Below the pieces are notes generated by a model, which was given only the letters and a program-made list of their open reading frames with translations, made no database searches and was not told where the DNA came from. A DNA stretch of 64,000 bases from Caulobacteraceae bacterium (GTDB lineage Bacteria > Pseudomonadota > Alphaproteobacteria > Caulobacterales > Aquidulcibacteraceae). The position numbers and the translations under genes are program-made. The stretch's first letter is position 1, and each line of letters begins with the position of its first letter. The DNA is taken from NCBI GenBank assembly GCA_009773335.1, contig WRPF01000003.1, positions 1-64,000 on the forward strand, written 5' to 3'. Shown here one piece after another: positions 36,897 to 59,933 of this stretch.

Positions 36897-36973
<77 letters not shown>

Positions 36974-41282: not shown

Positions 41283-43490
41283 TCAATAGTTCGACATGGC
41301 CACGGCGTTTCGGGCGTCGAGCGGCTTGCCGGCGCGTTGCAGCTGCAGTTCGCGAGCGCGGGTCCTGCGCTGCTCGTCGATCAGGTAGGCGTGGATGGCG
41401 TTCACCTCCCCCGGTGTCAGCGTGTCGTCCCAGCGCGGCATGCCGTTCGCCAGGAACCAGCCCTCCAGAACGATCCCGTTGAACGCCGCGTGCGTCGCTG
41501 GCGCCATGCGACGCAGGTCCGGCGCTGTCGAGCGTGGTTGATTGGAATGGCAGATGGCGCAGTTGGCGAGGAACTGGCCGTGTCCAAACGCGATGGTCTG
41601 CCGCGTGACGCCCCGCGCCTGCGGCGGCGGCGGCGGCGCGACTGTCAGCGGCGGCAGCAGCTCTGGCCGCGCGACAGCGCCGCCATCAAGCCTGAAGACC
41701 AGGATTCGGTTCGCGTTCCCCCGCGAATACGCAGCAGAGTTGTCGGGGACATAGGACCAGCCGCCACCGCCGAAGCCCGTGGCGATCGCGACGTACTGCA
41801 CGCCTTTCACGCGGTAGGTCATGGGCGCAGCCATCATGGAAGAGCCTGTGTCGATTTCCTTGAGCACCTGCCCGGTGTCGGCGTTGCGCACGAAGAAGCG
41901 CCCGTCGATGGAGCCGTGCATCAACAGACCGGATCGCGTAGCGAGCACGCCGTTTCTATCCTGCGCACCAGATGTGTGAACGGCCCAGACTGTTTTACCG
42001 CTCAGCGCGTCGATCGCCCGTATCTCGGAGCTGAATGGCCGCTCCACCACCGAGCGCCATTCCGGAAGCGCCTTGACCGCCGCCTGAACAGGCGGCGGCA
42101 AGGTCGGCAAGACCGCCTGAAGATCGCTGGTGAAGATGAGGACGGCGCCGGCGTTCAATGCGCGTGATCGATGCGGCGCCGGCCCTGGCAGCGCCGGCGG
42201 CGTGAACATCAGGTTGCCCATGTCGAGGACGGCGGCGAAATAGAGGCCCCGTTCGGGGTCGTAGGCTGGCGGATACCAGTTCCGCGCGCCGGCCGCGGAG
42301 GGAAAGACGATCTTGGGGCCTGTGGCGTAGTCGGAGGACTGCGGCGTGGGGCGCGGGCGACCGGTCGCCAGATCGTAGCCATCCGTCCACGTGGTGCGCA
42401 CCAAAGCGTTCGCGCGAAGCGGTCTGCCTGTCTCGCGATCGATCACGAACAGGAATCCGTTCTTCACGGAATGCAGGATGACCGGCCGTTTTCGGCCGTC
42501 TATCTCGACATCCGCGAGGATCATCGGCTGCGACGCCGTGTAGTCCCAGCTGTCGCCCGGTGTTTCCTGAAAATGCCACCTGACCTTCCCGGTCGCCCTG
42601 TCCAGGGCCACGACGGACGACAGATAGAGATTGTCCCCGCCGCGCGGCGAACGCTGGCTGATCGGATACGGGCCGCCATTGCCGACGCCGATGTAGACCG
42701 CGTCGAAACCCGGGTCGTAGTGGATGGCGTCCCAGACCGTTCCGCCGCCGCCAATGTCCCAGCGGCTGTGCGGATCCCAGGTTTCAGCCGCCGCCTCAAG
42801 GGCGGCGTTTTCCTGCGGACCTTGTCGCGGATCGTGGGGAATGGTGAAGAAGCGCCAGACCTGCGCACCTGTATCGATCCGATATGCGGTGACGTAGCCG
42901 CGCACGTCGAATTCTGCGCCCGCATTGCCGATGACGACCAGGTCGCCAGCGATCTCGGGTGCGCCGGTAACGGTGTAGCCGCGCGCTCGATCCACGATCG
43001 TGTCGACTTTCCACACGACCGCCCCCGTCGCCGCGTTCAGCGCATAGAGGTAGCCATCAAGGGACGCGACCATGACTTTGCCGTCCCGCACGGCCACGCC
43101 GCGATTGGCCTGATCACAGCAGGCGACGCGATTGGACTGCATGTCCACTTCCGGCTCGAATCTCCAGATTTCCTCCCCCGTCGCCGCGTTCAGCGCGTAA
43201 GCGCGTCCGAGATTTCCGCTTGTATACATGACGCCGTCGATCACGACCGGCGTCGCCTCCTGCACGCGATTGGTGCCCAGATCGAAGGACCAGGCCAGGC
43301 CCAGCCGACCGACATTCCCGGGCGTGATATCGGTCAACGTCGAGTAGTGGCTCTTGGCGGCGTCGCCCCCTGGCGTGGTCCAATCGTCGCCAGCGCCGAT
43401 GGGGGCGCCCGCGCGTCGGCCACAGCCGATCAGGACAGCGCAGAGAACGGCAAGGACCAGAAACGGCGCGATCCGATGCATGGAGTTCAT
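41283..43490 (-). CDS. PQQ-dependent quinohaemoprotein alcohol dehydrogenase
   Basis: 735 aa. Lipoprotein-type signal (VLIGC, Cys23) gives a periplasmic, membrane-tethered enzyme. An eight-bladed propeller with repeated tryptophan-docking motifs (ALNAATGEEIWRFEPE, ALNAATGAVVWKVD, ALDRATGKVRWHF) and the vicinal disulfide Cys124-Cys125 (RVACCDQ) typical of type II ADH are present, followed by a C-terminal cytochrome c with CAICH at 644-648. It oxidises alcohols, probably arylic, and sends electrons to the respiratory chain. The ATG overlaps the NmrA stop (ATGA), so the two are co-transcribed from operator site 1. Confidence 0.93.
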   Translation of the reverse strand: MNSMHRIAPFLVLAVLCAVLIGCGRRAGAPIGAGDDWTTPGGDAAKSHYSTLTDITPGNVGRLGLAWSFDLGTNRVQEATPVVIDGVMYTSGNLGRAYALNAATGEEIWRFEPEVDMQSNRVACCDQANRGVAVRDGKVMVASLDGYLYALNAATGAVVWKVDTIVDRARGYTVTGAPEIAGDLVVIGNAGAEFDVRGYVTAYRIDTGAQVWRFFTIPHDPRQGPQENAALEAAAETWDPHSRWDIGGGGTVWDAIHYDPGFDAVYIGVGNGGPYPISQRSPRGGDNLYLSSVVALDRATGKVRWHFQETPGDSWDYTASQPMILADVEIDGRKRPVILHSVKNGFLFVIDRETGRPLRANALVRTTWTDGYDLATGRPRPTPQSSDYATGPKIVFPSAAGARNWYPPAYDPERGLYFAAVLDMGNLMFTPPALPGPAPHRSRALNAGAVLIFTSDLQAVLPTLPPPVQAAVKALPEWRSVVERPFSSEIRAIDALSGKTVWAVHTSGAQDRNGVLATRSGLLMHGSIDGRFFVRNADTGQVLKEIDTGSSMMAAPMTYRVKGVQYVAIATGFGGGGWSYVPDNSAAYSRGNANRILVFRLDGGAVARPELLPPLTVAPPPPPQARGVTRQTIAFGHGQFLANCAICHSNQPRSTAPDLRRMAPATHAAFNGIVLEGWFLANGMPRWDDTLTPGEVNAIHAYLIDEQRRTRARELQLQRAGKPLDARNAVAMSNY

Positions 43491-44401
43491 TGCGGCCAGC
43501 TCGATTTGAATTGCATCATCACGTCCCTGAGCGTTCGTGGCGGCCTGCCGGTGATCCGCTCAACATGGTTGGTCAGCGCGTCGAAATAGCCTTCGCGAAT
43601 CGACTGGCCGAAGGTCACCATGTCGTCGCTGCTCCACGGGATCGGCCCGTCCGGCGCGATGTCGGAGGCATGGCGCGGAACGCCGAGTGAATCAAAATAC
43701 GCAAACATCTCTTCGTCGCTGACCTGGTCCACGACTATTGGACGCCCGGCCACGTGGCCGGCCAAACTCATCGCCTGGGGGATGGTGAACAATTCGGGAC
43801 CTGTGAGGTCGTAGGCCTGGTTCTCGTGCCCGCCCTCAGCCAGCACCGCGGCCGCCACGGCCACGCAATCGTCGCGCGACACGAAGGCGACGCGACCGAC
43901 CCCGCAGTTGTCCGGCTTGCGCCCTCCCATCTGGAGCGCGGGTATGACCATCGCGCCGGCGATCGCTTCCGCGTACTGGCTGTCGCGCAGAAAAGTCCAT
44001 GTTGCGCCCGAAGCCTCGATGATCTCCTCTGTCGCGCGGTGATCCGCCTTCACGATCGCCGGATTGCCTGGCGCCGCGACGCCCAGGAGCGATGTGTAGA
44101 CGATGTGCCTAACGCCGGCCGCCACGGCTGCCTCGACTGCATTGCGGTGCTGGCCGACGCGGGTCCCCACACGCGCCGTGCTGATCAGGAGCATGCGCTC
44201 ACCGCCAGCGAACGCCGACGCCAGGCCCGCGGGTTCGTCGAAATCGGCGTAGCGCACCGTGGCGCCCCTGGCGGCAAAGTCGGCCAGTTTCGCGGGCGTG
44301 CGCGACAGGAGTATCAGATTTGCGGGCCCCACCCGCTCCAGCAGCGACGCCGCGGCTGCCCGCCCAAATGCGCCTGAAGCGCCGCTCACGACAATCGACA
44401 C
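43487..44401 (-). CDS. NmrA-like NAD(P)-binding protein (atypical SDR)
   Basis: 304 aa from a GTG at 44401, preceded by GGGGAG at 7 nt; longer frames reach into the operator and are not credible. VVSGASGAFGRAAAASLLERVG is the nucleotide loop of NmrA/quinone oxidoreductase 2-type atypical SDRs, followed by RMLLISTARVGTRVGQHRNAVEAAVAAGVRHIVYTS. Many members reduce quinones, while others sense the NADP/NADPH ratio. Paired with the quinohaemoprotein dehydrogenase, it may handle a quinone or aldehyde product. Divergent from the NTF2-like gene at 44.5 kb over operator 1. Confidence 0.85.
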   Translation of the reverse strand: MSIVVSGASGAFGRAAAASLLERVGPANLILLSRTPAKLADFAARGATVRYADFDEPAGLASAFAGGERMLLISTARVGTRVGQHRNAVEAAVAAGVRHIVYTSLLGVAAPGNPAIVKADHRATEEIIEASGATWTFLRDSQYAEAIAGAMVIPALQMGGRKPDNCGVGRVAFVSRDDCVAVAAAVLAEGGHENQAYDLTGPELFTIPQAMSLAGHVAGRPIVVDQVSDEEMFAYFDSLGVPRHASDIAPDGPIPWSSDDMVTFGQSIREGYFDALTNHVERITGRPPRTLRDVMMQFKSSWPQ

Positions 44402-44451
44402 CCTTCGGCTCCCCAATGTGTCCGGTTCTGGCGACCACGACTTGCTGCATA

Positions 44452-44469
44452 CAATAACGAATGTTATTG
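44452..44469. promoter_or_regulatory. Cluster operator site 1
   Basis: CAATAAC-GAAT-GTTATTG, perfect 7-bp arms. It lies between the divergent NmrA-PQQ dehydrogenase operon and the NTF2-like gene. Confidence 0.75.
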
Positions 44470-44504
44470 TTAGGGCAAGCGCGACGATCAACATGGAAGG
44501 GCAG

Positions 44505-45002
44505 ATGACGCCACTTGATGTCACGGACAGGTTCGCCATCCAGGACTTGCTCGCCGCTTACGGCTGGGCGCTGGACACGGGCGATGTCGAGGCGCTTGTC
44601 GCCTGCTTCATGCCCGATGCCCTCTTGATCGAGGAAGTCTTCGAGGAACCGGACATATGGGAGGGTCATGACGGCATCCGTCGCCTTGCCGAGCACTACC
44701 GTAATGCGCCCGGCTTCCCCGGCCGCCAGCACCACGTGACCCAGACGCAGTATGCGCCCCAGGCTGACGGCTCAGTCGCGCTGCGCTCCTTCGCCTTTGT
44801 GACCGAATGCGACGGAGAGCCGCCCTACCTGCTTCGCTTCGCTGGCTGGTATGACGACCTCGTGGTGAAGGGCGACGACGAGAAATGGCGCTTCGAGCGA
44901 CGCACCGTGCGCCTGTGGGATGGCGAAGTGCTGAAACTGTTCCCGGGGCGCGGCGAATGGAAACCGCGCAAGCGCCCGGACTCTCTCAAGATTCGAACCT
45001 GA
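44505..45002 (+). CDS. NTF2/SnoaL-like protein, catabolic cluster copy 1
   Basis: 165 aa SnoaL_4-type cone fold: MTPLDVTDRFAIQDLLAAYGWALDTGDVEALVACFMPDALL, with Tyr/Asp pairs common in dehydratase- and isomerase-like members, ending in a basic tail. I set the start at the ATG at 44505 because GGAAGG lies 4-5 nt upstream; an ATG at 44493 lacks a ribosome site. One of four intact NTF2-fold genes in the cluster and controlled with the NmrA operon by site 1. The reaction is not known. Confidence 0.82.
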   Translation: MTPLDVTDRFAIQDLLAAYGWALDTGDVEALVACFMPDALLIEEVFEEPDIWEGHDGIRRLAEHYRNAPGFPGRQHHVTQTQYAPQADGSVALRSFAFVTECDGEPPYLLRFAGWYDDLVVKGDDEKWRFERRTVRLWDGEVLKLFPGRGEWKPRKRPDSLKIRT

Positions 45003-45013
45003 TGCCGGCCGCC

Positions 45014-45119
45014 TAGAGCATTTTCCGACGAAGTGGGCGCCGGTTCGTCGCCAGAAAATGCGTTCAAACAAGAAGCTAGAGCCCCGATCCGATTCAATCG
45101 GATCGGAAATGGCTCTAGC
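45014..45119. repeat. GATCCGATT palindrome repeat and likely terminator
   Basis: A TAGAGCATTTTC(C)GACGAA / TTCGTCG..GAAAATGCG hairpin is followed by GATCCGATTcAATCGGATC (perfect palindrome, 45086-45104) inside CTAGAGCC/GGCTCTAG arms. It lies between convergent genes and overlaps the transporter stop. It resembles intergenic repeats I recall from other alphaproteobacteria. Confidence 0.6.
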
Positions 45120-46335
45120 CGGGCTTCGGCGCGTCCGCCAGGAGGGGCGCGCGCGTCAGTGACGACAACACGGCGACCACAAAAAGCCCTGCGGCGAGAA
45201 CGCTCAGTAGCGGAACGATCGAATGCGCGGTGAACATTGACACGACTGCGCTCGCCAGCGCGGTGATGAGCAGTTGGCACGTGCCGACCAATCCCGCCGC
45301 AGCGCCGGCGCTGGCGCGCGCTGAATCCAGTGCGGTAATCGCGGCGGGCGTCAGCATCAGACCTGATACTGCGAAGATCGCCATGGAATAGAGTTGGAAA
45401 GCGACCAGCGGCGCCTGCCCAAACTGGGCGAGGCAAAGCACAAGGGCGCTGACGACAAACGCCGCCATGCTGGCGCGCCGAATCAGCACGGGCGCACCCC
45501 ACCTGCGCATGAGCGCTGGCGCGAACTGGGTTGCGAGAATCGAGGCTCCCGCGTTGAGCGCGAGGAGGAGCGTGTAATTGGCCGGCGGCAATCCGTACAC
45601 GCCGGAAAAGACAAAGGGCGCCGCCGTCACGTACGCGAACGGGATCGTCGTGGCCAAGCCCGCGACGATCGACCATTTCTGGAAACCCGGACTGCGCAGA
45701 AGCTCTGGAAAACCGGCCAGAATGGGCGCACGCGCCGATTGGCGCTTCTCGGGCGGCAACGATTCCGGCAGCAGCATGGCCGAGGCCGCCAGCGCCGCGA
45801 CGCCCGCGATCGCCAGCATCACAAACAGGCCCCGCCACTCCATCACGCCGAGCGCAAGGTTGCCGAGTAATGGCGCGGCAACCGGCGAAATCCCGATGAC
45901 AAGGAAGCTGAAAGCCATGAGCTTCGCCGCCTCGTGCCCCGTCCGCAGGTCGCGGATCATGGCGCGCGCCACGGCTGTTCCAGCGCAGGCGCCCAGTCCC
46001 TGCAGGAACCTGAAGACGATCAGCTGGTCGACACTCACGGCCATCGCGCATCCCGCGGATGCGGCGATGAAGACGGAAAGGCCAACGAGCAGCGGAAGGC
46101 GTCGACCAAAACGGTCACCGAACGCGCCTATCGGAATTTGCGCGCACGCAAGGGCCAGAAAGAAAACCGACAGCGTGCGCTGCACGGCGCCGTCGCTCGT
46201 GGCGAACTCGGCCTTCATCGTGGTCATGGCCGGAAGGTAGAGATCGATGGAGAGCGGCCCGAGAACGCACAGAAATCCGAGCGCGAGGCCGAGTATCAAG
46301 GTCGGCGGGGGCGCCGCTCCTTCCTGCTGGGACAT
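45115..46335 (-). CDS. Bcr/CflA family drug-resistance-like MFS transporter
   Basis: 406 aa, 12 TM helices, start at the ATG at 46335. ILGLALGFLCVLGPLSIDLYLPAM is the Bcr/CflA opening and GAFGDRFGRRLPLLVGLSVF the MFS motif A; motif C-like GSGP is replaced by ISPVAAPLLGN. The family exports bicyclomycin, chloramphenicol and other amphiphiles. In this cluster it could export a toxic phenolic intermediate or the substrate itself. Operator site 2 lies 41-54 bp upstream. Confidence 0.9.
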   Translation of the reverse strand: MSQQEGAAPPPTLILGLALGFLCVLGPLSIDLYLPAMTTMKAEFATSDGAVQRTLSVFFLALACAQIPIGAFGDRFGRRLPLLVGLSVFIAASAGCAMAVSVDQLIVFRFLQGLGACAGTAVARAMIRDLRTGHEAAKLMAFSFLVIGISPVAAPLLGNLALGVMEWRGLFVMLAIAGVAALAASAMLLPESLPPEKRQSARAPILAGFPELLRSPGFQKWSIVAGLATTIPFAYVTAAPFVFSGVYGLPPANYTLLLALNAGASILATQFAPALMRRWGAPVLIRRASMAAFVVSALVLCLAQFGQAPLVAFQLYSMAIFAVSGLMLTPAAITALDSARASAGAAAGLVGTCQLLITALASAVVSMFTAHSIVPLLSVLAAGLFVVAVLSSLTRAPLLADAPKPG

Positions 46336-46375
46336 TTCGCATTCACTCCCGAATGTCGCTAGCGCACCCTGCATC

Positions 46376-46389
46376 ATAACGAACGTGAT
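46376..46389. promoter_or_regulatory. Cluster operator site 2
   Basis: ATAACGAACGTGAT, one mismatch from the TAAC-N4-GTTA consensus, just upstream of the MFS gene. Confidence 0.5.
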
Positions 46390-46465
46390 TATAATGGCGT
46401 GTGTTGCGCAATATTGCGAGGGCGGCGCGCTGGAATTGGTGTTAACGGCGGGGACGCGGGGGCAG

Positions 46466-46900
46466 TCACGGCCTGCGGAAAAGGAGCTCGCCCCGCCGCT
46501 CGGCAAAACGCCAGTCGGCTCCCTCTCGCACAATGCGATCGGCGAATGAGCCGATGAGCGGCGGCTGGGTGTCATTGATCGGCAACCCGCCGGCGGGAGC
46601 CCCCAGGCCGAGATAGTGCGCCACAACGCTGAAGGCCGTCGCGACGTCCCTGCTTTCTGCTGTAACGACAATGTTCGCGCAGATGCGCCGCCCAGGCAGC
46701 ACGGGTCGCGACGCGAACCCATCCAGAATCGCCTGCCGGCCCCGTATCGGTACATCCGGACTGGATGGACGCGCGAAAGCTGCGTCCTCAGTGAACAACC
46801 CGGCGAGTTCCGTCCAGCGCCCCTCGTCGCTGAGGTTCGCATAGTGATTGATGAGCCGGGTGCATTCGGCCTCGATTGCCAGCCGTTCGAAGCGGTCCAT
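46466..46900 (-). CDS. NTF2/SnoaL-like protein, cluster copy 2
   Basis: 144 aa, SnoaL_4 group: MDRFERLAIEAECTRLINHYANLSDEGRWTELAGLFTEDAAFARPSSP, then IRGRQAILDGFASRP. Similar fold to copy 1 but not a close paralogue. Start ATG at 46900 with a GGGGGG stretch before it. Divergent from the aldehyde dehydrogenase gene across operator site 3, so it probably shares its control. Confidence 0.8.
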   Translation of the reverse strand: MDRFERLAIEAECTRLINHYANLSDEGRWTELAGLFTEDAAFARPSSPDVPIRGRQAILDGFASRPVLPGRRICANIVVTAESRDVATAFSVVAHYLGLGAPAGGLPINDTQPPLIGSFADRIVREGADWRFAERRGELLFRRP

Positions 46901-46950
46901 GTCCACGCCCCCCAAATACGTTGACGCCCCGTCGCGAGGTTGGCACAACA

Positions 46951-46964
46951 CTAACGACTGTTAT
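46951..46964. promoter_or_regulatory. Cluster operator site 3
   Basis: CTAAC-GACT-GTTAT, perfect TAAC/GTTA arms, between the NTF2-like copy 2 and the aldehyde dehydrogenase gene. Confidence 0.7.
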
Positions 46965-47022
46965 GTATACGAGGCTGGCGCAACGCACGCCAGCCCCAAA
47001 CGACACGCGAGGGAGCGCAAAG

Positions 47023-48495
47023 ATGGCGACAATCCAGCCGACGGGCGTAAAGATCGCTCACCCCGAACGGCTCTTCATCGGCGGCGCGTGGGTCGCCCCG
47101 CTGGCCGGCGGGGCCATTGAAGTCATCTCTCCCCACACAGAACGGGTGTCGGCTGTCGTCGCCGAAGCGCGCGAGGCCGACATGGATCGTGCGGTCGCCG
47201 CGGCCCGCAAGGCATTCGACGAGGGTCCGTGGCCGACCATGCCCGTTGCGGAGCGCGCGGCGATCATACGCAAGATGGCGGTCCTGCTGGCGGAACGCCA
47301 GGACGAGTTGGCGGCCGCATTCACCGCCGAGATCGGCGCCTTGTGCACCTTCGCCCCTTTCGCCGCCAGCTCCAGCACAACGACGCTGGCGAACTACGCC
47401 GACATCGGCGAGGCCTATGCGTGGGAGACGCGCCAACCCAGCACCGTTCCAGGTCACACCACCATCCTGCTGCGCGAACCCGTCGGCGTGGTTGCAGCTA
47501 TCGCACCGTGGAACATGCCGTACGCCATCATGGTCCAGAAGATCGCGCCAGCGCTCATCTGCGGGTGCACGGTGATCATGAAACCCGCCCCGGAAACCCC
47601 GCTTGAGGCCTACATTCTCGCCGAAGCGGCAGAGGCCGCAGGCATACCGCCCGGCGTGCTCAACCTGGTGACCGGCCATCGCGACGCATCTGACCATCTC
47701 GTCCGCAATCGCGGCGTGGACAAGATCAGCTTCACCGGATCGACAGTGGCCGGCAAGCGCATCGCAAGCGTCGCCGGCGAGCGCATCGCCCGCGTGACGC
47801 TGGAGCTGGGCGGCAAGTCTCCCGCCGTCGTGCTCGACGACTTTCCCACGGAAGCGGCAGGCCAGATCCTCGCGCGTACGATCACCGTGCTCTCAGGCCA
47901 GGTCTGCGCCATGCTGAGTCGCGCGATCGTGCCGGCAAGCCGCATCGGCGCAATAGCCGATGCGATCGCGGCGGAGATGCAGAAAGTCAGGATCGGCTCG
48001 CCGCTCGATCCCGCCACAGAAATGGGGCCGATCGCGCTCAAGCGACAGATTGAACGCATCGAACACTACGTCGAGAGCGGCAAGCGCGAAGGCGCAAGAC
48101 TCGTCACAGGCGGCAAGCGTCCCGTGCACATGGATGTCGGCTACTATTATGAACCGACGCTGTTCACCGACGTGGACAACTCCATGACAATTGCACGCGA
48201 GGAAATATTCGGTCCGGTCCTGGCGCTGATTCCGGCAAATGACCTCAATCACGCCATCCAGTTGGCAAATGACAGCGATTTCGGCCTCAACTCGGCTGTC
48301 CTGAGCAATGACCCCGACGCTGCGTACGCCGTCGGCCGGCGCTTGCGTACGGGAAATGTCGGCCAGAACGGTCTGAAGTGCGACTTCAGCCAACCCTTCG
48401 GCGGCTTCAAACAATCCGGCGTAGGTCGTGAAGGCGGTGTTGAAGGCCTCATGCCCTACATCGAACTCAAGGCCATGCAGATCGAAATGGCCTAA
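47023..48495 (+). CDS. NAD(P)-dependent aldehyde dehydrogenase
   Basis: 490 aa, ALDH superfamily. Substrate Asn164 in APWNMPY, cofactor-loop TGSTVAGKRI, general base Glu261 in LELGGKSP and nucleophile Cys295 in SGQVCAML are all intact. Start ATG at 47023. It would oxidise an aldehyde such as a vanillin- or benzaldehyde-type product to the acid. Expected position in the pathway is directly after C=C cleavage by the dioxygenase at 49.4 kb. Sits under operator site 3. Confidence 0.92.
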   Translation: MATIQPTGVKIAHPERLFIGGAWVAPLAGGAIEVISPHTERVSAVVAEAREADMDRAVAAARKAFDEGPWPTMPVAERAAIIRKMAVLLAERQDELAAAFTAEIGALCTFAPFAASSSTTTLANYADIGEAYAWETRQPSTVPGHTTILLREPVGVVAAIAPWNMPYAIMVQKIAPALICGCTVIMKPAPETPLEAYILAEAAEAAGIPPGVLNLVTGHRDASDHLVRNRGVDKISFTGSTVAGKRIASVAGERIARVTLELGGKSPAVVLDDFPTEAAGQILARTITVLSGQVCAMLSRAIVPASRIGAIADAIAAEMQKVRIGSPLDPATEMGPIALKRQIERIEHYVESGKREGARLVTGGKRPVHMDVGYYYEPTLFTDVDNSMTIAREEIFGPVLALIPANDLNHAIQLANDSDFGLNSAVLSNDPDAAYAVGRRLRTGNVGQNGLKCDFSQPFGGFKQSGVGREGGVEGLMPYIELKAMQIEMA

Positions 48496-48541
48496 TCGCA
48501 AGCACCACGTCGCACCGCGCCACGGCGTTCGGCCTCGGCGT

Positions 48542-49186
48542 TCAAACGCGTCTTGGCTTTCGCTTGGCCTTGGCCGTCTTCGCGGGTTCTTTCTTGCGCG
48601 GACGACCAGAACGCGCCGGCTTCGCGATCGGCGCCGCAACCACATCGCCGACAGGACGCGTACGTTCGAGGAACACGGACCGCCCTTCTTCGTCCGAAGC
48701 CTCAAGCGTCTTGATCAAGGTTGCAAGAAAGCGATTGAGCGCCATGACTTCGTCGGAATGAAGGTCCGACAGCAGGTACTCGGCCACCCGGTCCGTCTGC
48801 GGTCGCATGATCTCGAACAGGCGCCGGCCTTCGTCCGTGAGGCTCAACGTCTTGCGACGACGATTGGTGGGATCACGCACCACATTGATCCGCCCGTGCT
48901 TGTCCAGCGTGGTGACGGCGCGCGAGACGCTCATGATATTGACGCCAGTCATCTCGGCGAGTTCATGACTGGCGGTCGAGCCATGCCGGCCGATCAGCAT
49001 GAGCAACCTGAACTCGTTCACGCTGATCTTGTAGCGGTGCTCAAGATACACCGAGAACGGCGTCATGAGCTTGTTGGACAGTTTCAGGATCTGATGCAGC
49101 GTATCCGCTGGCGAACCTCGGCGCGCGCTCGGCGACGGCGCCGACGCGGCGGCAGTTCGTGATGCTTTGACGTAGTCCTCGGACAT
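48542..49186 (-). CDS. MarR family transcriptional regulator
   Basis: 214 aa, longer than the typical 150 because of a 35-residue N-terminal lead and a basic Lys/Arg/Pro-rich tail (about 190-214). The winged HTH is at about residues 65-130, VNEFRLLMLIGRHGSTASHELAEMTGVNIMSVSRAVTTLDKHG, followed by the RDPTNRRRKTLSLTDEGRR wing. Start at the ATG at 49186. Divergent from the dioxygenase gene with operator site 4 between them. As the only MarR/TetR-type regulator between 44 and 57 kb, it is the best candidate to bind the TAAC-N4-GTTA sites, probably as a repressor released by a phenolic ligand. Confidence 0.88.
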   Translation of the reverse strand: MSEDYVKASRTAAASAPSPSARRGSPADTLHQILKLSNKLMTPFSVYLEHRYKISVNEFRLLMLIGRHGSTASHELAEMTGVNIMSVSRAVTTLDKHGRINVVRDPTNRRRKTLSLTDEGRRLFEIMRPQTDRVAEYLLSDLHSDEVMALNRFLATLIKTLEASDEEGRSVFLERTRPVGDVVAAPIAKPARSGRPRKKEPAKTAKAKRKPRRV

Positions 49187-49336
49187 TCCACACAAACCTC
49201 AAACTGGCGCGACGCGACTGCCGGCGCCCGACTGCTCTACCTGCATTCATATCCCATTTCTCGCGTCGGCCAGACGCTCCGCGCCTGATTGTACTCAAGC
49301 GCCGGCCTGCTGAACACGCCGGGGGTTGATGTTATT

Positions 49337-52205: not shown

Positions 52206-52219
52206 GGCTATTTCCTGCG

Positions 52220-52609
52220 CTAGACGGGCGAATGGGGGTTTGGTCCATCGGTCCGGACATCCTGCAGCACATCCCAATGCTCCCTGATCATGCCGTCTTC
52301 GATACGGAAAATATCGCATACGATCATGCCGGCGTCTTCGGGCCATCGTTTGATCAGGTAGTGCACGATGACATGGTCGCCGTCGGCGAAGACACGTTTG
52401 ATGTCATGCGTTGCGTAGGGATGCTGCGGTCTGATCTCGTCGAGAAAATCCCTGAGAGCGGCGACGCCGGGCGCCGCAAGCTGGCTGTGCTGGATGTAGT
52501 CCGGCGAAATAAAATGATCAACTTGAGTCGAATCCATCGGGATCAGGACCGACCTAAACATCTCCATCACGAGGTCGACGTTGCGCTGCTCCTCCGGCGT
52601 GCGGGTCAT
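52220..52609 (-). CDS. NTF2/SnoaL-like protein, cluster copy 3
   Basis: 129 aa SnoaL polyketide-cyclase-type protein: MTRTPEEQRNVDLVMEMFRSVL, DSTQVDHFISPDYIQHSQLAAPGVAALRDFL, VFADGDHVIVHYLI and IVCDIFRIEDGMIREHWDVLQD. This C-terminal DIFRxExGxIxEHWD stretch is the usual SnoaL signature. First gene of its operon; operator site 5 lies 128-141 bp upstream. Confidence 0.87.
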   Translation of the reverse strand: MTRTPEEQRNVDLVMEMFRSVLIPMDSTQVDHFISPDYIQHSQLAAPGVAALRDFLDEIRPQHPYATHDIKRVFADGDHVIVHYLIKRWPEDAGMIVCDIFRIEDGMIREHWDVLQDVRTDGPNPHSPV

Positions 52610-52736
52610 GCATCGCCTCCATCAATCGCGTTTGAATCGACCGGCGCCTCAACCAGCGCGCGAACGCCCCTGGAGCCCATGATGACCTCTCAAGTGTGGC
52701 GGGCACGGATTTTAACGTCCACCCCTTTCGTTTACA

Positions 52737-52750
52737 CTAACGTTCGTTAT
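52737..52750. promoter_or_regulatory. Cluster operator site 5
   Basis: CTAAC-GTTC-GTTAT, perfect TAAC/GTTA arms, between the NTF2-SDR-DUF3237 operon and NTF2-like copy 4. Confidence 0.7.
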
Positions 52751-52816
52751 GTTTAGGCGCAAGACAAGCGACGCGACCCAAGGGCGGCTTGACCGAGCGA
52801 AAACAGGAGGAAGAAC

Positions 52817-53212
52817 ATGGATCGGGCTGCGTACGAACACTATGTGCACTGCTTCAACGCACGCGACTACGACGCGATCTTCGACTTTTACGCTGACAAT
52901 CCCGACATTTCCTTCTTCGGCGTCACGATCAGAAGTCGCGAGGCGTTGAAAAGCTTCTACGGCTTCCTGCATCGCTATGTGCGCGAGACCGTGCGGATTG
53001 AACGCTTCGCGTCCAGCGACGAACTGGTCGCGGTCGAAGGCGTCGTGCGCGTCGAAGGCATTCGCGACCTCGACCAGAAGACGCTGGATGAAAACAAGAT
53101 GGGTGGTCTCTTCCCGATCTCAGCCGGTCAGGTTCAGGAAATGCGGCAATACATCCACTACCATCTCAAGGACGGCAAGTTCGCCAGCGTCGGATGCGCC
53201 GTCGTGGGCTGA
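52817..53212 (+). CDS. NTF2/SnoaL-like protein, cluster copy 4
   Basis: 131 aa NTF2-like cone fold: MDRAAYEHYVHCFNARDYDAIFDFYADNPDISFFGVTIRSREALKSFYGFLHRY, ending in HYHLKDGKFASVGCAVVG. AGGAGGAAG gives a strong ribosome site. Divergent from copy 3, both flanking site 5. This copy is the closest relative of the truncated frame after the dioxygenase. The chemistry is not established; NTF2-fold enzymes in other lignin-dimer pathways act as formaldehyde lyases. Confidence 0.82.
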   Translation: MDRAAYEHYVHCFNARDYDAIFDFYADNPDISFFGVTIRSREALKSFYGFLHRYVRETVRIERFASSDELVAVEGVVRVEGIRDLDQKTLDENKMGGLFPISAGQVQEMRQYIHYHLKDGKFASVGCAVVG

Positions 53213-53239
53213 CCATGCGCGAAGCAAATCTACGGTCGC

Positions 53240-54532
53240 TTACGGCGTTCCCGTCGTCGCAGGTGATGCGTTGTGATTCGCGACCGCCCTGAAAAACGCC
53301 AATGTCTCAGCCATCATGGGACCTTCGTTGGCCACGGGGAAATAGCTCAGCTTGACAATCACCGTGCGGCTCTGCGGCGCGACGTAGATGAACTGGCCCG
53401 CCAGGCCAACGGCGCTGAATGCGCCGGGATTGTCATCGACCTGCCACCACTGAAAGCCGTAGCCGACTCCGAAGTTGACATTGCTTGGCCCGTCGAAGGC
53501 CGTCATCTGCGTGGACTGGCGCACCCAGTCGGGTGGAATGACCTGGCGCTCGTCGACCTTGCCGCCGTTCAGCATCAGCAGACCGATGCGGGCGTAATCC
53601 CGCAGCGTGGCGTTGAATCCCATGCCGCTGAGTTCGCGGCCCACGCCGACAGGACCGTCCGCGATCCAGAACCCGTCACGCTCCATCCCGGCCGGTTTCC
53701 AGAGCCATTCAGAGGTCAAGTCCGCCATTGACCGATGCGCTGCGTTCTCGAGCGCCCATCCGAGCACCGCAGTATCGAGAGTCGCATAGTTGAAACGTGC
53801 GCCAGGTTCTGCTGCGCGTGTGACCGTCCTGGCGCGATCGGCGAAACGTTCGATATTCCGAACAACCGCCTGTTCGTGGATGATTGCCGCCAGACTCGGA
53901 TTCGCACCAAAATCGTAGCGTTCCTCGTAGGCCACGCCAGACCGCATCTGGAGGATGTTGCGCAGGCTCACGCCATCATAGCCAGACCCTCGCAGTTCGG
54001 GAACATAGTTCACAACCGGATCGTCAATCGAGGCGATGAGCCCCCTTTCGATGGCGATGCCGATCAGGATCGACGTCACTGACTTGGCCATCGAGAAAGA
54101 GGCAAATCGCGTCTCTGCCGTGGAACGGTTCCGGTAGTCCTCGAACGTGATCCGGCCATCGCGGACGATCAGGAACGCATTGGTGTTCGTGCGCTCCGCA
54201 AAGTCGGCGTAGGACCTTGTCTGTCCTTGAAACTCGTAGGTCGGCAATGGAGCGGCCGAAGACGACAGTTCGAAGACCTCCCTGCCGTGGGTGACGGTGC
54301 GGGTCTCGAACAGCTCGTCCATGTTCCGCAGAAACAACGATTCAACTTCCGGATTGAGGAGGTTGCGCCGCAACGCGAGCATGGTTGGTGTCGGCGGGGA
54401 ATGCTCACCCGGCGAGGTAGCCGCGCCCGGCGTCTCCATGCGCTGGGGCAACTGCGACGTCTGACATCCCTGCGCGAACAGGAGCGCGACTGCCGCCAGG
54501 GCCAGCCCCACGCCGTACCTCTGTGTTGTCAT
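53240..54532 (-). CDS. Lipoprotein serine hydrolase (beta-lactamase class C fold)
   Basis: 430 aa from the ATG at 54532. Lipobox at FAQGC (Cys23), so a membrane-anchored periplasmic enzyme. SxxK is in SFSMAKSVTSILIG, the second motif is NYATLDTAVLG and the HxG-like triad segment is VGLAGQFIYV. Resembles 6-aminohexanoate-dimer-hydrolase-type esterases. It may split ester or amide forms of the substrate in the periplasm. Separated from the TonB receptor gene upstream by a strong terminator, so it must have its own promoter. Confidence 0.85.
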   Translation of the reverse strand: MTTQRYGVGLALAAVALLFAQGCQTSQLPQRMETPGAATSPGEHSPPTPTMLALRRNLLNPEVESLFLRNMDELFETRTVTHGREVFELSSSAAPLPTYEFQGQTRSYADFAERTNTNAFLIVRDGRITFEDYRNRSTAETRFASFSMAKSVTSILIGIAIERGLIASIDDPVVNYVPELRGSGYDGVSLRNILQMRSGVAYEERYDFGANPSLAAIIHEQAVVRNIERFADRARTVTRAAEPGARFNYATLDTAVLGWALENAAHRSMADLTSEWLWKPAGMERDGFWIADGPVGVGRELSGMGFNATLRDYARIGLLMLNGGKVDERQVIPPDWVRQSTQMTAFDGPSNVNFGVGYGFQWWQVDDNPGAFSAVGLAGQFIYVAPQSRTVIVKLSYFPVANEGPMMAETLAFFRAVANHNASPATTGTP

Positions 54533-54590
54533 GCGTTCCTCCAAAGGTTCGGTGCACGGTCACATTGCGCCGGTGATCAAAGGCCAAACG

Positions 54591-54622
54591 AAAACGGGGG
54601 AGCCCGTGACTTGGCTCCCCCG
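54591..54622 (-). terminator. Rho-independent terminator of the TonB receptor gene
   Basis: On the minus strand CGGGGGAGCC-8 nt-GGCTCCCCCG (10-bp perfect stem) is followed directly by TTTT. It lies 25 bp after the receptor's stop codon. Confidence 0.85.
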
Positions 54623-54646
54623 ATCGCGATCACATCGCTCCCTGCG

Positions 54647-57043
54647 TCAGAAGTCGCGCCTTACCGTCAACATCACGGTGCGCGGAAGCGCTGGCGACCC
54701 ATAGACCGAGCCCGCAAGCCCTGTCGTCGCGTCGACCTTGGCCGTGTAGTAGAGTTCGTCGGTCAGATTGCGGCCCTCGACCGCCAACGACCAAGTCTCA
54801 TCCTTGGCGATCCAACGGATGCTTCCGTTGAGCAGAGTGTAGGAGTCGATCCTGCCAAGCGCGGTATTGTCGGGCGCCGTGAAGACGTCATCGCGGTACG
54901 ATACGTCCAGACGCGGACGGACCGTGCCCAGCGAGGTATTCCAGTCATACTGCACGCCCAGCGCCCAGGTCGTTTCCGGCGTGTAGGGCGGGACAGCCGT
55001 GAGGGCGACGCCCGTCGCCGGGTTGAGCCGTGTGAATTCGAAGTCCAGCGTGCTGAGCGAGCCGTCAATCAACAGATTGTCCGTCGCGAGGAAATCAAAC
55101 TCGAGCTCATACCCCGTCACATCAGCATCGCCAGCGTTCGAGTTCAGGAGACAAGGGCGACCGAAAACCGACCCGAACTGCGCTGTACAATCGTTGAAGG
55201 TCAGCTGAATGTCCGAGTACGTGTTGGAGAATACAGCCGCGTTCAGACGCAAATGATTGTCCAGAAACTGCGTCTTGATGCCGACCTCGATGGTCTCCAG
55301 CTCCTCTGGCTGGAACGAAACAGCCTGCACATTGTAGAATGGTCGTGGGTTGACACCGCCGCCCTTGTAGCCCGTCGAATACGACACGTAGGCCATGATG
55401 TCATCGGTCACGTCGTAGTTCACCGCAGCACGGTAGTCGATGCGATCATCCGAGAAGACGCTGTTGACGCCGTCGAGCGTCGAGATCAGGCAGTTCGGCG
55501 GATTGCCCGGCGTTCCCGGAGGGCCGAGGCACGGCTGGATGGCGCCAAGGTCCGGATTGCGCCGGCGGAACGTGTAGTCCTTCTCGTCCTCACTATAGCG
55601 CGCGCCGACAACCAACTTGAGTTGCTCGGTCACGCTGAAGATGCTGTTGGCGAAGATCGCCCAGTTCTTGGACTTGACCGGGTCGGGACCATGAATGAAA
55701 TCGAATCCGACGTAGCCGAGGTCGATACGGCCGGAGAGATCGGAATTGGCGTCGAAGTAGAACCCTCCCACGGTCCAATCCGCAAAATCGCCGAAACTGC
55801 CGTTGAGACGAAGCTCCTGGCTCCACTGCTTGTGGGTATTGGTCTGAAAGAGCAACGCCGTCGGCATGGGCGAAGCATCGTAGTCGCCCGAGAAGCTGCT
55901 CTCGTACTCCCGGTAGCCCGTGATGGATTGCAGGCTCAGGGTGGGGGAAATATCCCAGTCCACATTGAGGCTTGCGCCGCGGGATTGCAGTGTACGGGCG
56001 CGCGGAATTCTAAGTCCGGTGCGCGGGTCGGTGTAGTCCGCATAACTGGCATAGGGGTCGTTCGGGCTGCGCGGATCGCACGACGCCGGTCCGTAGGCGA
56101 TGAACTGACAGCCGACATTGCTGCCCAATGTCGGTGGGATGGCGACCGTCTCCCAGATGAGCCCGTTGGGATGGATGACCGGTGCGATTGTCGGCCCGAC
56201 GGCGAGCAGTGTGTTCGCCGTTGATTCACTGTCGTCATTCACGGCATCAGCGGAGAAATTGATCTCCAGATTGCTGCTGGCTTGCCAGCGCAGCGCCACG
56301 CGCGCCGCCGTGTAGTCGACCCCGCCATCGGTTCCAGTCTTGCAACCCGCCCCTGCATTGAGGGCCGGAAAAGCGCCTCCGGGGTGAGTGCATCCGTAGT
56401 CGTACGTGGTGACATGGCCATCACGCGAACTCGAAACGCCGGAGATGCGCGCCCAAAGCTTGTCCTCCACCAACGTCATGTTCGTGGCCGCGCGAACTCT
56501 CAACGCGTTGAGGTCACCTCCGGACACTTCGACATATCCGTTCGCATCTTCGTCCGGACGCTTGCTGAAAAGCCTGATCGCCCCCCCGATCGAGTTCTTG
56601 CCAGCCAGAGTCCCCTGCGGACCGCGCAGCACTTCAACGCGATCGAGATCCAGCAACTCGAGGACGGCCCCCGTCAGCGTAGAATAGTACACGTCATCGA
56701 CGTAGAGGCCGACCCCTGGCTCCAGCGCGGGATTGAAGTCAGTCTGGCCAACGCCGCGAATGAACGCGACGAGCGACGGTCCCGCAAACGCGCCGCCCGT
56801 GGTCAGCGAAACCCCCGGCGCCTGAGCCCCGATCTCTTCAACGCTGAACTGCCCACGCGCCTGCAGCGTATCCCCGGAAATGGCCGTGATCGCGATTGGC
56901 GTATCCTGGACGTTCTGTTCCCTGAACTGCGCCGTCACGACAACCTCGTCGAGACCGACACTCTCCTCTTGGGCAAACGCTGATGGCGCAAAGGCAGCGA
57001 CCGCCGCCCACAGACCCAGAAACTTCTTCAAATTCTTGCTCAA
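54647..57043 (-). CDS. TonB-dependent outer membrane receptor
   Basis: 798 aa. Signal peptide MSKNLKKFLGLWAAVAAFAP ending at AFAQ, then a TonB box-like EVVVTAQ, a plug domain (DTPIAITAISGDTLQARGQFSVEEIG ... LDLDRVEVLRGPQGTLAGKNSIGGAIRLFSKRP) and a beta-barrel ending in the aromatic TVMLTVRRDF. In this cluster it probably imports the phenolic or dimeric substrate. Operator sites 6 and 7 lie in the upstream divergent region. Large loops are intact, with no frameshift. Confidence 0.95.
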   Translation of the reverse strand: MSKNLKKFLGLWAAVAAFAPSAFAQEESVGLDEVVVTAQFREQNVQDTPIAITAISGDTLQARGQFSVEEIGAQAPGVSLTTGGAFAGPSLVAFIRGVGQTDFNPALEPGVGLYVDDVYYSTLTGAVLELLDLDRVEVLRGPQGTLAGKNSIGGAIRLFSKRPDEDANGYVEVSGGDLNALRVRAATNMTLVEDKLWARISGVSSSRDGHVTTYDYGCTHPGGAFPALNAGAGCKTGTDGGVDYTAARVALRWQASSNLEINFSADAVNDDSESTANTLLAVGPTIAPVIHPNGLIWETVAIPPTLGSNVGCQFIAYGPASCDPRSPNDPYASYADYTDPRTGLRIPRARTLQSRGASLNVDWDISPTLSLQSITGYREYESSFSGDYDASPMPTALLFQTNTHKQWSQELRLNGSFGDFADWTVGGFYFDANSDLSGRIDLGYVGFDFIHGPDPVKSKNWAIFANSIFSVTEQLKLVVGARYSEDEKDYTFRRRNPDLGAIQPCLGPPGTPGNPPNCLISTLDGVNSVFSDDRIDYRAAVNYDVTDDIMAYVSYSTGYKGGGVNPRPFYNVQAVSFQPEELETIEVGIKTQFLDNHLRLNAAVFSNTYSDIQLTFNDCTAQFGSVFGRPCLLNSNAGDADVTGYELEFDFLATDNLLIDGSLSTLDFEFTRLNPATGVALTAVPPYTPETTWALGVQYDWNTSLGTVRPRLDVSYRDDVFTAPDNTALGRIDSYTLLNGSIRWIAKDETWSLAVEGRNLTDELYYTAKVDATTGLAGSVYGSPALPRTVMLTVRRDF

Positions 57044-57061
57044 TTTTCCCTCCCTGCGATT

Positions 57062-57075
57062 CTAACGATCGGTAT
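57062..57075. promoter_or_regulatory. Cluster operator site 6
   Basis: CTAACGATCGGTAT, one mismatch in the right arm, directly ahead of the TonB receptor gene. Confidence 0.55.
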
Positions 57076-57398
57076 TATTGGCAATAGCGGAACGATTTCC
57101 CCCGACGTCAATCCGCGTCGTTCAAAAAAGCCGCCCCCCAACACGACTGACGGGCGACCGCTGCTGAAACGACACACATCGCCCCGTGGTTGCGTAGGCT
57201 GCTTTCTGGCTCACCATCACAAACCTTAAAGCGCTCTACGGGGTTTAGTCTTGAACGCCTGACGTTGCGCGACTTGAACGCGGGCGGTGCGGCACTTGCC
57301 TGCCGGGCATCGCCCCAGCGTACGCGCCGTGCTTCCTGGGTGCTGCAAACCAGACCGCGTCCGGTGCATGAACACCATTGACTCGCCGCGCAGCCAAT

Positions 57399-57412
57399 AT
57401 AACGATCGTTAT
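57399..57412. promoter_or_regulatory. Cluster operator site 7
   Basis: ATAACGATCGTTAT, a perfect 14-bp palindrome and the closest match to the consensus, ahead of the flavoprotein operon. Confidence 0.78.
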
Positions 57413-57457
57413 TGAAGTCTCAGGAGGAGACCAGGCCAGGTAAGGTAAGGGGGCGAG

Positions 57458-59020
57458 ATGCCGCTGCGGTTGCTCCCCCCGGGAATGACGCCCGTGCGGC
57501 TCAGGGCCGCCCAGAGGCGATTCGCAGCGATTCTCGGGGCCGATCGCGTCTTTTTCGACGAGCTTGACCGGGAAACTTATTCGGACCAGTTCGCGATCTC
57601 ACCCGATTCGCACGTGCCGATCGGGGCGGTCGCGCCAGAATCGGTTGAGGAAATAAGGGCGATCGTCGCGGTCGCCAACGCCTACAAGCTACCGCTTTGG
57701 CCCATCAGTCGCGGGAAGAACCTCGGCTATGGCGGATCGGCGCCGGTCCTGTCCGGATCGGTAGTGCTTGATCTTTCGCGCATGAAGAAGATCGAGGTCG
57801 ACCGCGAAAACGGCGTCGTTCTCGTCGAACCGGGGGTCAGCTTCTATGACCTCCATGACTACCTGCAGACAAACGACATTCCGCTCTGGCTTTCGGTGCC
57901 GGGAAACAGTTGGGGATCGGTCGCCGGAAACGCGCTCGACCGTGGCGTCGGCTACACCACCTACGGGGACCACACGTCGAAGATTTGCGGGCTCGAAGTG
58001 GTCCTGCCGGATGGAGACCTTGTCCGGACAGGCATGGGGGCAATGGCGAACGCGCCGACGTGGCAGCTCTATCGCTATGGCTACGGGCCGGCCTGGGATC
58101 AGCTCTTTGTCCAGTCGAACTTCGGCATTGTGACGAAGCTCGGGCTCTGGCTCATGCCGCGTCCCGAGTCGATGATGGGGCTCGAACTCAATTTTGATAA
58201 ACCCGAAGACTTGGAGTGGGCAGTCGACATTCTCGCCGGACTGCGGCGCGAGGGGCTGCTGCAGCAGGCGCCCTCGATCGGCAACTGGCTTCGCGCTGCA
58301 GCGGTCCTGACCAAGCGGGAGGACTGGCACGATCAACCCGGCGCCCTGCCCGACAGCGTCATCGCCGCGATCCGTCGAAAGTTCCAGCTCGGCTGGTGGG
58401 GTACTTCGGTTCGCGTTTACGGGCGCGAGAGCGTCAATCGCGCCGCGATCAGCGCGATAAAGTCAGCCTTCAAGGGACATCGGCTGATGTCGATGGAGCG
58501 CACGCATTGGGTCGACGGCGAACCGCTTGAACGAAGCGCCTGGGTCGGGGCGCCCATTACATTCCCCATGCAGAATGTCGGCTGGCACGGTGGTCGCGGC
58601 GGCCACATCGGCTTTTCACCCGTGCTGCCCGCGAACGGCCGGCTCGCCATGGAACAATTCAGGCAGACGTACGCCCGGTACAAGGAGTTCGGCATGGATT
58701 ACCAGGCCAGCTTCGCCATGGGCGAACGGCACCTCACCAATGTGAACGCCATTCTCTTCAACCAGGACGATCCGGCCATGATGGCGCGAATCCATCCGTT
58801 TTTTCGGACGCTCGTCGCCGATGCAAAGGCGCGCGGTTACGCCGAGTACAGAGCGCACATCGAGCACATGGACCTCGTCGCCGAGACCTATGATTTCAAC
58901 AATCACGCGTTGCGTCGACTGAACGAACGCGTCAAGGACGCACTCGATCCGAATGGCGTCATCGCCCCCGGCAAGAGCGGTATCTGGCCAGCACGTCTCA
59001 GGACCAGGAGGCGCCGGTGA
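57458..59020 (+). CDS. VAO/PCMH-family FAD oxidoreductase subunit (p-cresol/eugenol hydroxylase type)
   Basis: 520 aa, as p-cresol methylhydroxylase PchF (521) and vanillyl-alcohol-oxidase relatives. FAD-binding SRGKNLGYGGSAPVLSGSVVLDLSRM at about 84-109, and the phenolate-binding end YRAHIEHMDLVAETYDFNNH (Tyr464-Arg465, equivalent by motif to VAO Tyr503-Arg504). His383 in GGHIGFSPV is a candidate for covalent FAD attachment, which I infer by position only. It should hydroxylate a benzylic carbon para to a phenol. Start ATG at 57458, first gene of a three-gene overlapping operon with a cytochrome c, so electrons go to the cytochrome rather than oxygen. Confidence 0.9.
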   Translation: MPLRLLPPGMTPVRLRAAQRRFAAILGADRVFFDELDRETYSDQFAISPDSHVPIGAVAPESVEEIRAIVAVANAYKLPLWPISRGKNLGYGGSAPVLSGSVVLDLSRMKKIEVDRENGVVLVEPGVSFYDLHDYLQTNDIPLWLSVPGNSWGSVAGNALDRGVGYTTYGDHTSKICGLEVVLPDGDLVRTGMGAMANAPTWQLYRYGYGPAWDQLFVQSNFGIVTKLGLWLMPRPESMMGLELNFDKPEDLEWAVDILAGLRREGLLQQAPSIGNWLRAAAVLTKREDWHDQPGALPDSVIAAIRRKFQLGWWGTSVRVYGRESVNRAAISAIKSAFKGHRLMSMERTHWVDGEPLERSAWVGAPITFPMQNVGWHGGRGGHIGFSPVLPANGRLAMEQFRQTYARYKEFGMDYQASFAMGERHLTNVNAILFNQDDPAMMARIHPFFRTLVADAKARGYAEYRAHIEHMDLVAETYDFNNHALRRLNERVKDALDPNGVIAPGKSGIWPARLRTRRRR

Positions 59021-59379
59021 TACGCACGCTGCCTCGGACCTTCGGCATCGTTTTCGTCCTCGCGCTGGCGGCGGGATGCGGTGACGTAAAGAAACGCGAT
59101 GCGCCAGCCGTCGCTTCCTCCGCGTTTGAGCCTGGAAAGGCGTTGTACGACGAGCATTGCGCGATGTGTCATGGTCCCAAGGGCATGGGCACGGGGCTGC
59201 TCGCGCGGCGGACGGAAACGCCGTTGCTCGAAGAACGCACTGACTTGACTCCCGACTTTGTCGTCCAGGCGGCGCGTATGGGAATCCTGAACATGCCGGC
59301 GATCCCGAGAGGCGAAGTCAGCGACCCCGAGCTTGCGGCGATCGGCGACTATCTGTCCCGCAGCCGGGGCGCGCCGTGA
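59017..59379 (+). CDS. Cytochrome c lipoprotein subunit of the flavocytochrome
   Basis: 120 aa. LALAAGC lipobox (Cys21) and one haem site, Cys48-Ala-Met-Cys51-His52 (HCAMCHGPKGMG), with Met93 (LNMPAIP) as the likely sixth ligand. It is the PchC-type electron acceptor for the flavoprotein; the GTG start lies within the upstream stop (4-nt overlap). In known PCMH and pinoresinol hydroxylase systems the cytochrome is soluble or complexed; here a lipid anchor seems likely. Confidence 0.9.
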   Translation: MIRTLPRTFGIVFVLALAAGCGDVKKRDAPAVASSAFEPGKALYDEHCAMCHGPKGMGTGLLARRTETPLLEERTDLTPDFVVQAARMGILNMPAIPRGEVSDPELAAIGDYLSRSRGAP

Positions 59380-59933
59380 ACGATCTCTTCCCCACGCGCC
59401 GCCTGGTGGTGCTGTCAGGCCTGGCGCTGGCGTCCGCGTCCATCATCCGCCTTCCGCGCGCACGCACTCACACAAACCGGCCGAACAGCGTTTGTCTTTT
59501 CGACTCACGGTCGCCGGCGTCCCGCACATTCGCCGAGGGTTTTGGGGGCCAATCGGTCCCCTCCGACCCGGACATCATTCGCACGCTTCGCGATGTGCTG
59601 ACGGATGCGCGCCCCCTCCAGGTCGTCGGGCTAGTCGGGTGGGCGCATTTCCTCCTCGGGCGCGAGGCGTTGAGGGAGCACGGCTATCGCATCGACCAGT
59701 GCTTCGAACACCGCACCAGCGGGGACGCGGTGGTCCATGTCGCCCAAGTGGGCGGGCGACGCGAGAGCATCGACTTGCCAACTGCGGATTGGGCGGGCGT
59801 TCTTGGGTGCATGTTCGCAGAGCATTTGACGCCGCCCCGGGCCCCGTGGGTCGAGACCTCGCGAAGCTGGCGAACCGGCGCGCTTCTGCTCAGCTGGACG
59901 GCCTCGCGGCGCACCCGGGAAGGCATAGCCTGA
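59376..59933 (+). CDS. Unknown exported protein, third gene of the flavocytochrome operon
   Basis: 185 aa, unrecognised. It starts at a GTG overlapping the cytochrome stop by 4 nt. N-terminus TRRLVVLSGLALASASIIRL has a Tat-like twin Arg and a hydrophobic stretch. The rest (SVCLFDSRSPASRTFAEGFG, DPDIIRTLRDVLTDARPLQV, FLLGREALREHGYRIDQCFEHRT) shows one Cys-x6 pattern but no known motif. It may be an accessory or maturation protein of the VAO/cytochrome pair, judging only from its coupling. Confidence 0.65.
   Translation: MNDLFPTRRLVVLSGLALASASIIRLPRARTHTNRPNSVCLFDSRSPASRTFAEGFGGQSVPSDPDIIRTLRDVLTDARPLQVVGLVGWAHFLLGREALREHGYRIDQCFEHRTSGDAVVHVAQVGGRRESIDLPTADWAGVLGCMFAEHLTPPRAPWVETSRSWRTGALLLSWTASRRTREGIA

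Follow-up and report, generated by a model that had tools for sequence, protein, structure and literature searches.

The 64,000 nucleotides of DNA analysed here (positions 1 to 64,000 of contig WRPF01000003.1, assembly GCA_009773335.1, from a Caulobacteraceae bacterium; "the window" below) contain, at positions 41283 to 59379, a gene cluster that probably encodes an upper catabolic pathway for a dimer of lignan or lignin origin. Its plan resembles that of the pinoresinol (pin) pathway described in Novosphingobium rhizosphaerae LY, but it belongs to a sister lineage that we call type II. The oxygenase, flavocytochrome, aldehyde dehydrogenase (ALDH), SDR oxidoreductase, pyrroloquinoline quinone (PQQ) dehydrogenase and four NTF2-fold genes that the original prediction had listed are all present and open, as is every other named gene of the cluster. 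The 4.0 Mb genome has a single gene of the carotenoid-cleavage dioxygenase family (CCD) and a single DUF3237 gene. As these two lie 0.1 kb apart, and as other genera have the set in rearranged form, the cluster is more than a chance assembly.

Gene content and homology with the pin cluster

The pin pathway of strain LY runs as follows (PMC12607616): PinZ reduces pinoresinol to lariciresinol, which PinY then oxidises; imperanene is formed from lariciresinoate by the decarboxylase PinX, a DUF3237 protein; its oxidation by the flavocytochrome PinVW, with loss of formaldehyde, yields diguaiacylbutadiene; and PinU cleaves the latter into vanillin and coniferaldehyde. The cluster is stated to be conserved in N. 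capsulatum, and pinY is its least consistently present gene (PMC12607616). In our comparisons a contig of N. capsulatum NBRC 12533 stands in for strain LY; its cluster was called pin by a CCD gene adjoining an NmrA gene, with DUF3237, flavoprotein and cytochrome genes inside 20 kb (the layout of PMC12607616), and its PinZ was assigned by 73.3% identity to the SYK-6 copy, compared with a published 73.7% between NrPinZ and SlPinZ (PMC12817470). Against this cluster the window proteins show identities of 72% (PinX, nearly full length), 62% (PQQ dehydrogenase), 58% (ALDH), 57% (NTF2c), 55% (PinU), 53-57% (SDR), 50% (PinZ), 50% (NTF2d), 46% (PinW) and 39% (PinV).

The NmrA-like NADPH reductase gene (43487-44539, minus strand, conserved part from ~44398) encodes a protein predicted from its relatives to open a benzylic ether. 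It is 47% identical to SYK-6 PinZ and 50% to the N. capsulatum protein; PinZs in the literature share 73-79% identity with NrPinZ, and we do not class the window protein as a PinZ orthologue. Its nearest PDB entries are YtfG and triphenylmethane reductase, which PMC12817470 also gives as the nearest folds to NrPinZ. The original prediction had missed both this relative of PinZ and the kinship of the DUF3237 protein with the PinX/PhcF/PhcG decarboxylases, and had mistaken PinZ for a VAO flavocytochrome; PinZ is an NADPH reductase, and the flavocytochromes are PinVW in LY and PinAB in SG-MS2 (PMC12607616, PMC12997858). The NmrA gene overlaps by 4 bases that of a PQQ-dependent alcohol dehydrogenase (41283-43490, minus strand; Pfam PQQ and Cytochrome_CBB3, NCBIfam PQQ_enz_alc_DH above cut-off), which lies just before position 43487, where the original prediction had begun. 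This protein, with a cytochrome c at its C-terminus and a lipobox-like N-terminus, is a candidate for the alcohol-oxidising step; the ALDH gene is at 46876-48495 (plus strand, conserved part from ~47020).

The DUF3237 decarboxylase gene (50953-51459, minus strand; by identity to PinX) ends an operon in which it follows genes for NTF2c, a SnoaL protein (52220-52609), and the SDR oxidoreductase (51456-52346), both on the minus strand. An early idea, that the pair of genes preceding pinX in LY corresponds to NTF2c and SDR, was dropped, since N. capsulatum has its PQQ dehydrogenase homologue directly upstream of, and adjoining, pinX. In Frankia sp. QA3 (Actinomycetota; locus L088) DUF3237 and NmrA genes, 67% and 55% identical in product to those of the window, lie ~2 kb apart.

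The PinW-type flavoprotein of the VAO/PCMH family (57458-59020, plus strand; PinW identity and tree) has VAO and eugenol oxidase among its relatives, and its gene overlaps by 4 bases that of the PinV-type cytochrome c partner (59017-59379, plus strand). The flavoprotein is 67% identical to the SYK-6 type II copy (below). At the position which we take to be the covalent FAD attachment site of this family, its residues are Thr-Asn; those of a structurally solved relative are His-His and those of PinW Asn-Asn.

The CCD (49289-50848, plus strand, probable ATG at 49388) belongs to the PinU/NOV2/LSD5 subfamily and scores 850 bits against the 650-bit cut-off of the NCBIfam NOV2 equivalog (NF053780). 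It keeps the four histidines as well as Tyr101 and Lys134 (LSD4 numbering), the two residues singled out originally; where LSD4 has Phe59, the window CCD, LSD5, LSD6 and PinU have Leu, and the residue preceding the third histidine is Phe in the window CCD, LSD5 and LSD6. Among the SYK-6 LSDs (eight CCD genes whose order by position agrees with that of the eight LSD locus tags in PMC8191317) it is 68% identical to LSD5 (SLG_27970), 56% to LSD6 and 37-39% to the rest, with LSD4 at 39%. Lysates of all seven soluble SYK-6 LSDs, including LSD5, cleaved lignostilbene, and the physiological roles of the eight were reported as undetermined (PMC8191317).

The cluster genes also share control sites, as had been proposed. 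Five copies of the palindrome TAACNNNNGTTA are present in the 64 kb compared with an expectation of 0.01 (0 of 100 shuffles), and all are in cluster promoters: between NmrA-PQQ and NTF2a (TAACGAATGTTA, 44455-44466, the same place as in ~25 related loci), between NTF2b and ALDH (TAACGACTGTTA, 46952-46963), before CCD (TAACATTTGTTA, 49338-49349), between NTF2c and NTF2d (TAACGTTCGTTA, 52738-52749) and before the flavoprotein gene (TAACGATCGTTA, 57400-57411). Imperfect copies precede the major facilitator superfamily (MFS) transporter gene (TAACGAACGTGA, 46377-46388; perfect in the same place in strains RL4 and V4, below) and the TonB-dependent receptor gene (TAACGATCGGTA, 57062-57073). The ~25 related loci have the palindrome, mostly as TAACGATCGTTA, before orthologous genes, mostly in 2-6 copies per locus where 0.03-0.2 would be expected from base composition; in the pin-type loci checked it is nearly absent, though L105, a pin-type locus, has three copies with a different core. 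As it lies between the MarR and CCD genes in several loci, the MarR protein (48542-49195, minus strand; 57-72% identity in type II loci) is the obvious candidate for a regulator acting at TAACGATCGTTA.

The type II lineage and its possible substrate

In trees of the reductase, the dioxygenase and the flavoprotein the window sits in a clade of its own kind, "type II", which is sister to the pin clade; the flavoprotein tree has long branches and weak support on the PinW side. The lineage is found in ~30 genomes. Novosphingobium sp. RL4 has a rearranged set on a megaplasmid (DUF3237 77%, NmrA 71%, CCD 68%, PQQ 68% and flavoprotein 66% identical to the window), Sphingobium sp. V4 has part of the set on a plasmid, and it also occurs in relatives within the order and in Sphingobium, Novosphingobium, Sphingomonas, Altericroceibacterium and Alteraurantiacibacter genomes. 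The original prediction had suggested a new arrangement; it is not new, being similar to the pin cluster already published and present in these ~30 genomes. RL4 is described as a phoxim degrader and so offers no clue to the substrate. Strain SYK-6 has most of the type II set (DUF3237, flavoprotein, cytochrome, ALDH, CCD and NTF2a homologues) at 3.00-3.02 Mb around LSD5; no NmrA gene was seen in that stretch, and PinZ is present in the strain as well.

By homology, the reactions of the window cluster would run as follows: the sister of PinZ would open a benzylic ether ring; the PQQ and/or a zinc alcohol dehydrogenase, with the ALDH, would turn the CH2OH arm into COOH in place of the GMC oxidase PinY; the DUF3237 protein would decarboxylate this acid, with opening of the second ring to leave a double bond; the flavoprotein and its cytochrome c would oxidise the phenol, and the resulting quinone methide would lose formaldehyde to give a stilbene or diarylbutadiene; and the NOV2/PinU-type dioxygenase would cleave the latter into vanillin-type aldehydes. 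We read NTF2a-d and the SDR protein as accessory, perhaps for quinone methides or stereoisomers, and assign transport to the TonB receptor and the MFS protein.

Several observations weigh against this proposal. The reductase tree places the window NmrA protein in the sister clade of PinZ, outside PinZ itself; no GMC oxidase (PinY) was found in the cluster, one GMC gene being present elsewhere in the genome; the flavoprotein is only 46% identical to N. capsulatum PinW; and SYK-6, despite its type II homologues and PinZ, takes lariciresinol no further (PMC12607616). The last point also means that the type II substrate may not be pinoresinol. It argues for a different substrate and is not proof of one, since the halt at lariciresinol would also follow if an oxidation step were missing or the genes were not induced.

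Is type II, then, a pathway of its own or a second version of pin? The former we put at somewhat less than even odds: a separate, undescribed dimer pathway around LSD5, common in sphingomonads, for a dilignol other than pinoresinol, in which the highly conserved NTF2a (~75% identity across genera) would carry out a quinone-methide or isomerisation step unlike that of LdpA. That type II is functionally the same as pin, a merely diverged copy with pinoresinol or syringaresinol as substrate, we consider rather unlikely. The enzyme classes are the same, DUF3237 and CCD are 72% and 55% identical to the pin copies, and PinZ orthologues accept several resinols (PMC12817470), but the reductase, CCD and flavoprotein each fall in the sister clade, and SYK-6, with type II homologues as well as PinZ, halts at lariciresinol (PMC12607616). 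Improbable, in turn, is that the cluster serves stilbenoids or propenyl phenols (resveratrol, isoeugenol, eugenol), with the flavocytochrome as eugenol hydroxylase and the CCD as stilbene or isoeugenol oxygenase; NOV2-type enzymes do cleave several stilbenes (PMC8191317) and the flavoprotein is kin to VAO and eugenol oxidase, but the conserved DUF3237 decarboxylase and NmrA reductase would be left without a task, and the whole set fits the known dimer pathway.

If the substrate does differ from pinoresinol, the pathway proposed here would extend biological lignin funnelling to one more class of dimer; a 2026 review states that further lignin-dimer pathways await characterisation (PMC12997858). 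LSD5 is now tied to a set of genes that is conserved, co-regulated and similar in outline to the pin pathway, a likely decarboxylase, reductase and flavocytochrome are named, and the operator can be used to find the regulon in other genomes.

The NTF2-fold proteins and other neighbouring genes

The four NTF2-fold proteins had been proposed to include a step like that of LdpA, and of the original assignment to dimeric-phenol catabolism the part that stands is a pathway ending in a lignostilbene-type dioxygenase; the LdpA-like step found no support. The genes encode NTF2a (44493-45002, plus strand) and NTF2b (46466-46951, minus strand), both SnoaL_4 proteins, NTF2c (above), and NTF2d, a SnoaL_2 protein (52817-53212, plus strand). 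NTF2a is the most conserved of them, with 64-79% identity in 37 loci; NTF2b has 38-54% in 19 loci. Our LdpA query was the SYK-6 protein identical over its full length to the crystallised SpLdpA (8abv). Sequence search with it found no LdpA homologue in the window and none in the organism's own genome (the query is known to match SYK-6; there was no separate control), and NTF2a-d gave no meaningful alignment to LdpA. This genuine LdpA sequence having matched nothing in window or genome, the LdpA-like NTF2 step was rejected. NaLdpA comes at about rank 33 among the matches of the NTF2a structure model (pLDDT 85; 21% identity, E 1.6e-7, TM 0.62), and other SnoaL structures match better. VIA-align gives NTF2a only a general SnoaL/scytalone dehydratase fold; LdpA is not among the 50 matches listed there, an absence that in itself rules nothing out. 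The NTF2d model (pLDDT 93) matches polyketide-cyclase-like, ketosteroid isomerase and limonene epoxide hydrolase folds. It is highly improbable that an NTF2-fold protein here acts like LdpA or PcfL, taking formaldehyde off a beta-1 or beta-5 dimer so that the dioxygenase receives a lignostilbene: the shared fold of the NTF2a model and the preference of SYK-6 LSD5 for lignostilbene over DCA-S (PMC8191317) speak for it, but neither the window nor the genome yielded a homologue of LdpA or PcfL, and NTF2a has ~170 residues compared with ~240 in LdpA.

In many Novosphingobium pin-type clusters (L113, L123 N. capsulatum; L085-L120) an LdpA homologue, in most 76-82% identical to SpLdpA, lies between pinZ and a TonB gene, so there genes for beta-1 and beta-beta dimers are neighbours. 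The association of LdpA with such a cluster, as originally proposed, thus does exist in other genomes, though not in the window. The SYK-6 type II region has a distant LdpA relative (L125:7327-8013), 28% identical to LdpA and 35% to another LdpA-like protein of SYK-6, that the window is without.

Three other genes lie within the cluster, all on the minus strand. The MFS transporter gene runs from 45115 to ~46300 (the open frame continues to 46842, the conserved part starting at ~46300) and its product is 56% identical to the RL4 copy; a beta-lactamase-fold lipoprotein hydrolase (53240-54544) and the TonB-dependent receptor (54647-57043) are 53-61% and 64-67% identical, respectively, to proteins of the G222 and G170 clusters.

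At lower coordinates than the cluster, and also on the minus strand, are genes for a LigB-type class III extradiol dioxygenase (37568-38398, no operator), a LigA-type subunit (38391-38747) and, directly upstream of LigA, a cytochrome P450 (38749-39927) that matches the solved structure 8fbc (E 8e-174). The LigB-type enzyme probably belongs to the lower pathway; LigA/LigB homologues adjoin pinU-pinZ in Novosphingobium. Beyond the window, at ~73.5-75.0 kb of the contig, is a homologue of LigM (vanillate/3-O-methylgallate O-demethylase), and around it (~66-78 kb; L040:2280-14393) are MetF-like, FolD, formyl-THF hydrolase-like, FdhD and NADH-dehydrogenase-type genes that form a one-carbon module. 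We take LigM and the one-carbon genes, together with LigAB, as the lower pathway; vanillin-type products, methoxy carbons and formaldehyde would then have outlets close by. The G+C content drops after a tRNA-Arg gene (36897-36973), from 0.67-0.69 before it to ~0.61-0.65 as far as ~87 kb. A mobile island is not supported: no repeat of the tRNA 3' end was found on the contig and no integrase among the genes scanned by Pfam.

Comparison with known dimer systems

The PinAB proteins of Pseudomonas sp. SG-MS2, likened here by description, resemble the window in having a VAO/PCMH flavoprotein with a cytochrome partner, but their pathway logic differs. The gamma-formaldehyde lyases LdpA and PcfL (beta-1 and beta-5 dimers) share the NTF2/SnoaL fold with window proteins. 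The Phc beta-5 pathway of SYK-6 (GMC oxidases PhcC/D, DUF3237 proteins PhcF/G, and LSD4) is like that proposed for the window in its decarboxylation by DUF3237 proteins and subsequent cleavage by an LSD. The window cluster differs in having no GMC oxidase, its CCD is 39% identical to LSD4, and two DUF3237 proteins of SYK-6, encoded close to LSD7 and a pair of GMC genes and by position probably phcF/phcG, are only 36-43% identical to the window DUF3237 protein. A Phc-like set outside the sphingomonads is present on a plasmid of Roseinatronobacter sp. S2 (L010:13956-28447), where three DUF3237, two GMC oxidoreductase, a CCD and an ALDH gene lie together.

The closest characterised system is the pin cluster of LY and N. 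capsulatum, which shares with the window the NmrA reductase, DUF3237 protein, flavoprotein with cytochrome c and NOV2/PinU-type dioxygenase; N. capsulatum also shares, within ~27 kb, PQQ dehydrogenase, ALDH, SDR, NTF2c, NTF2d, TonB and LigAB genes. The window differs in that its proteins are in sister clades (39-72% identity), its CCD and NmrA genes are uncoupled and 5 kb apart (adjacent in pin), NTF2a and NTF2b are added, ldpA and a PinY-type GMC gene are absent, and the TAACGATCGTTA operator system is present. The other type II clusters resemble the window more closely, with orthologues mostly 60-80% identical, the same operator and, in most, NTF2a adjoining NmrA-PQQ; their gene order differs.

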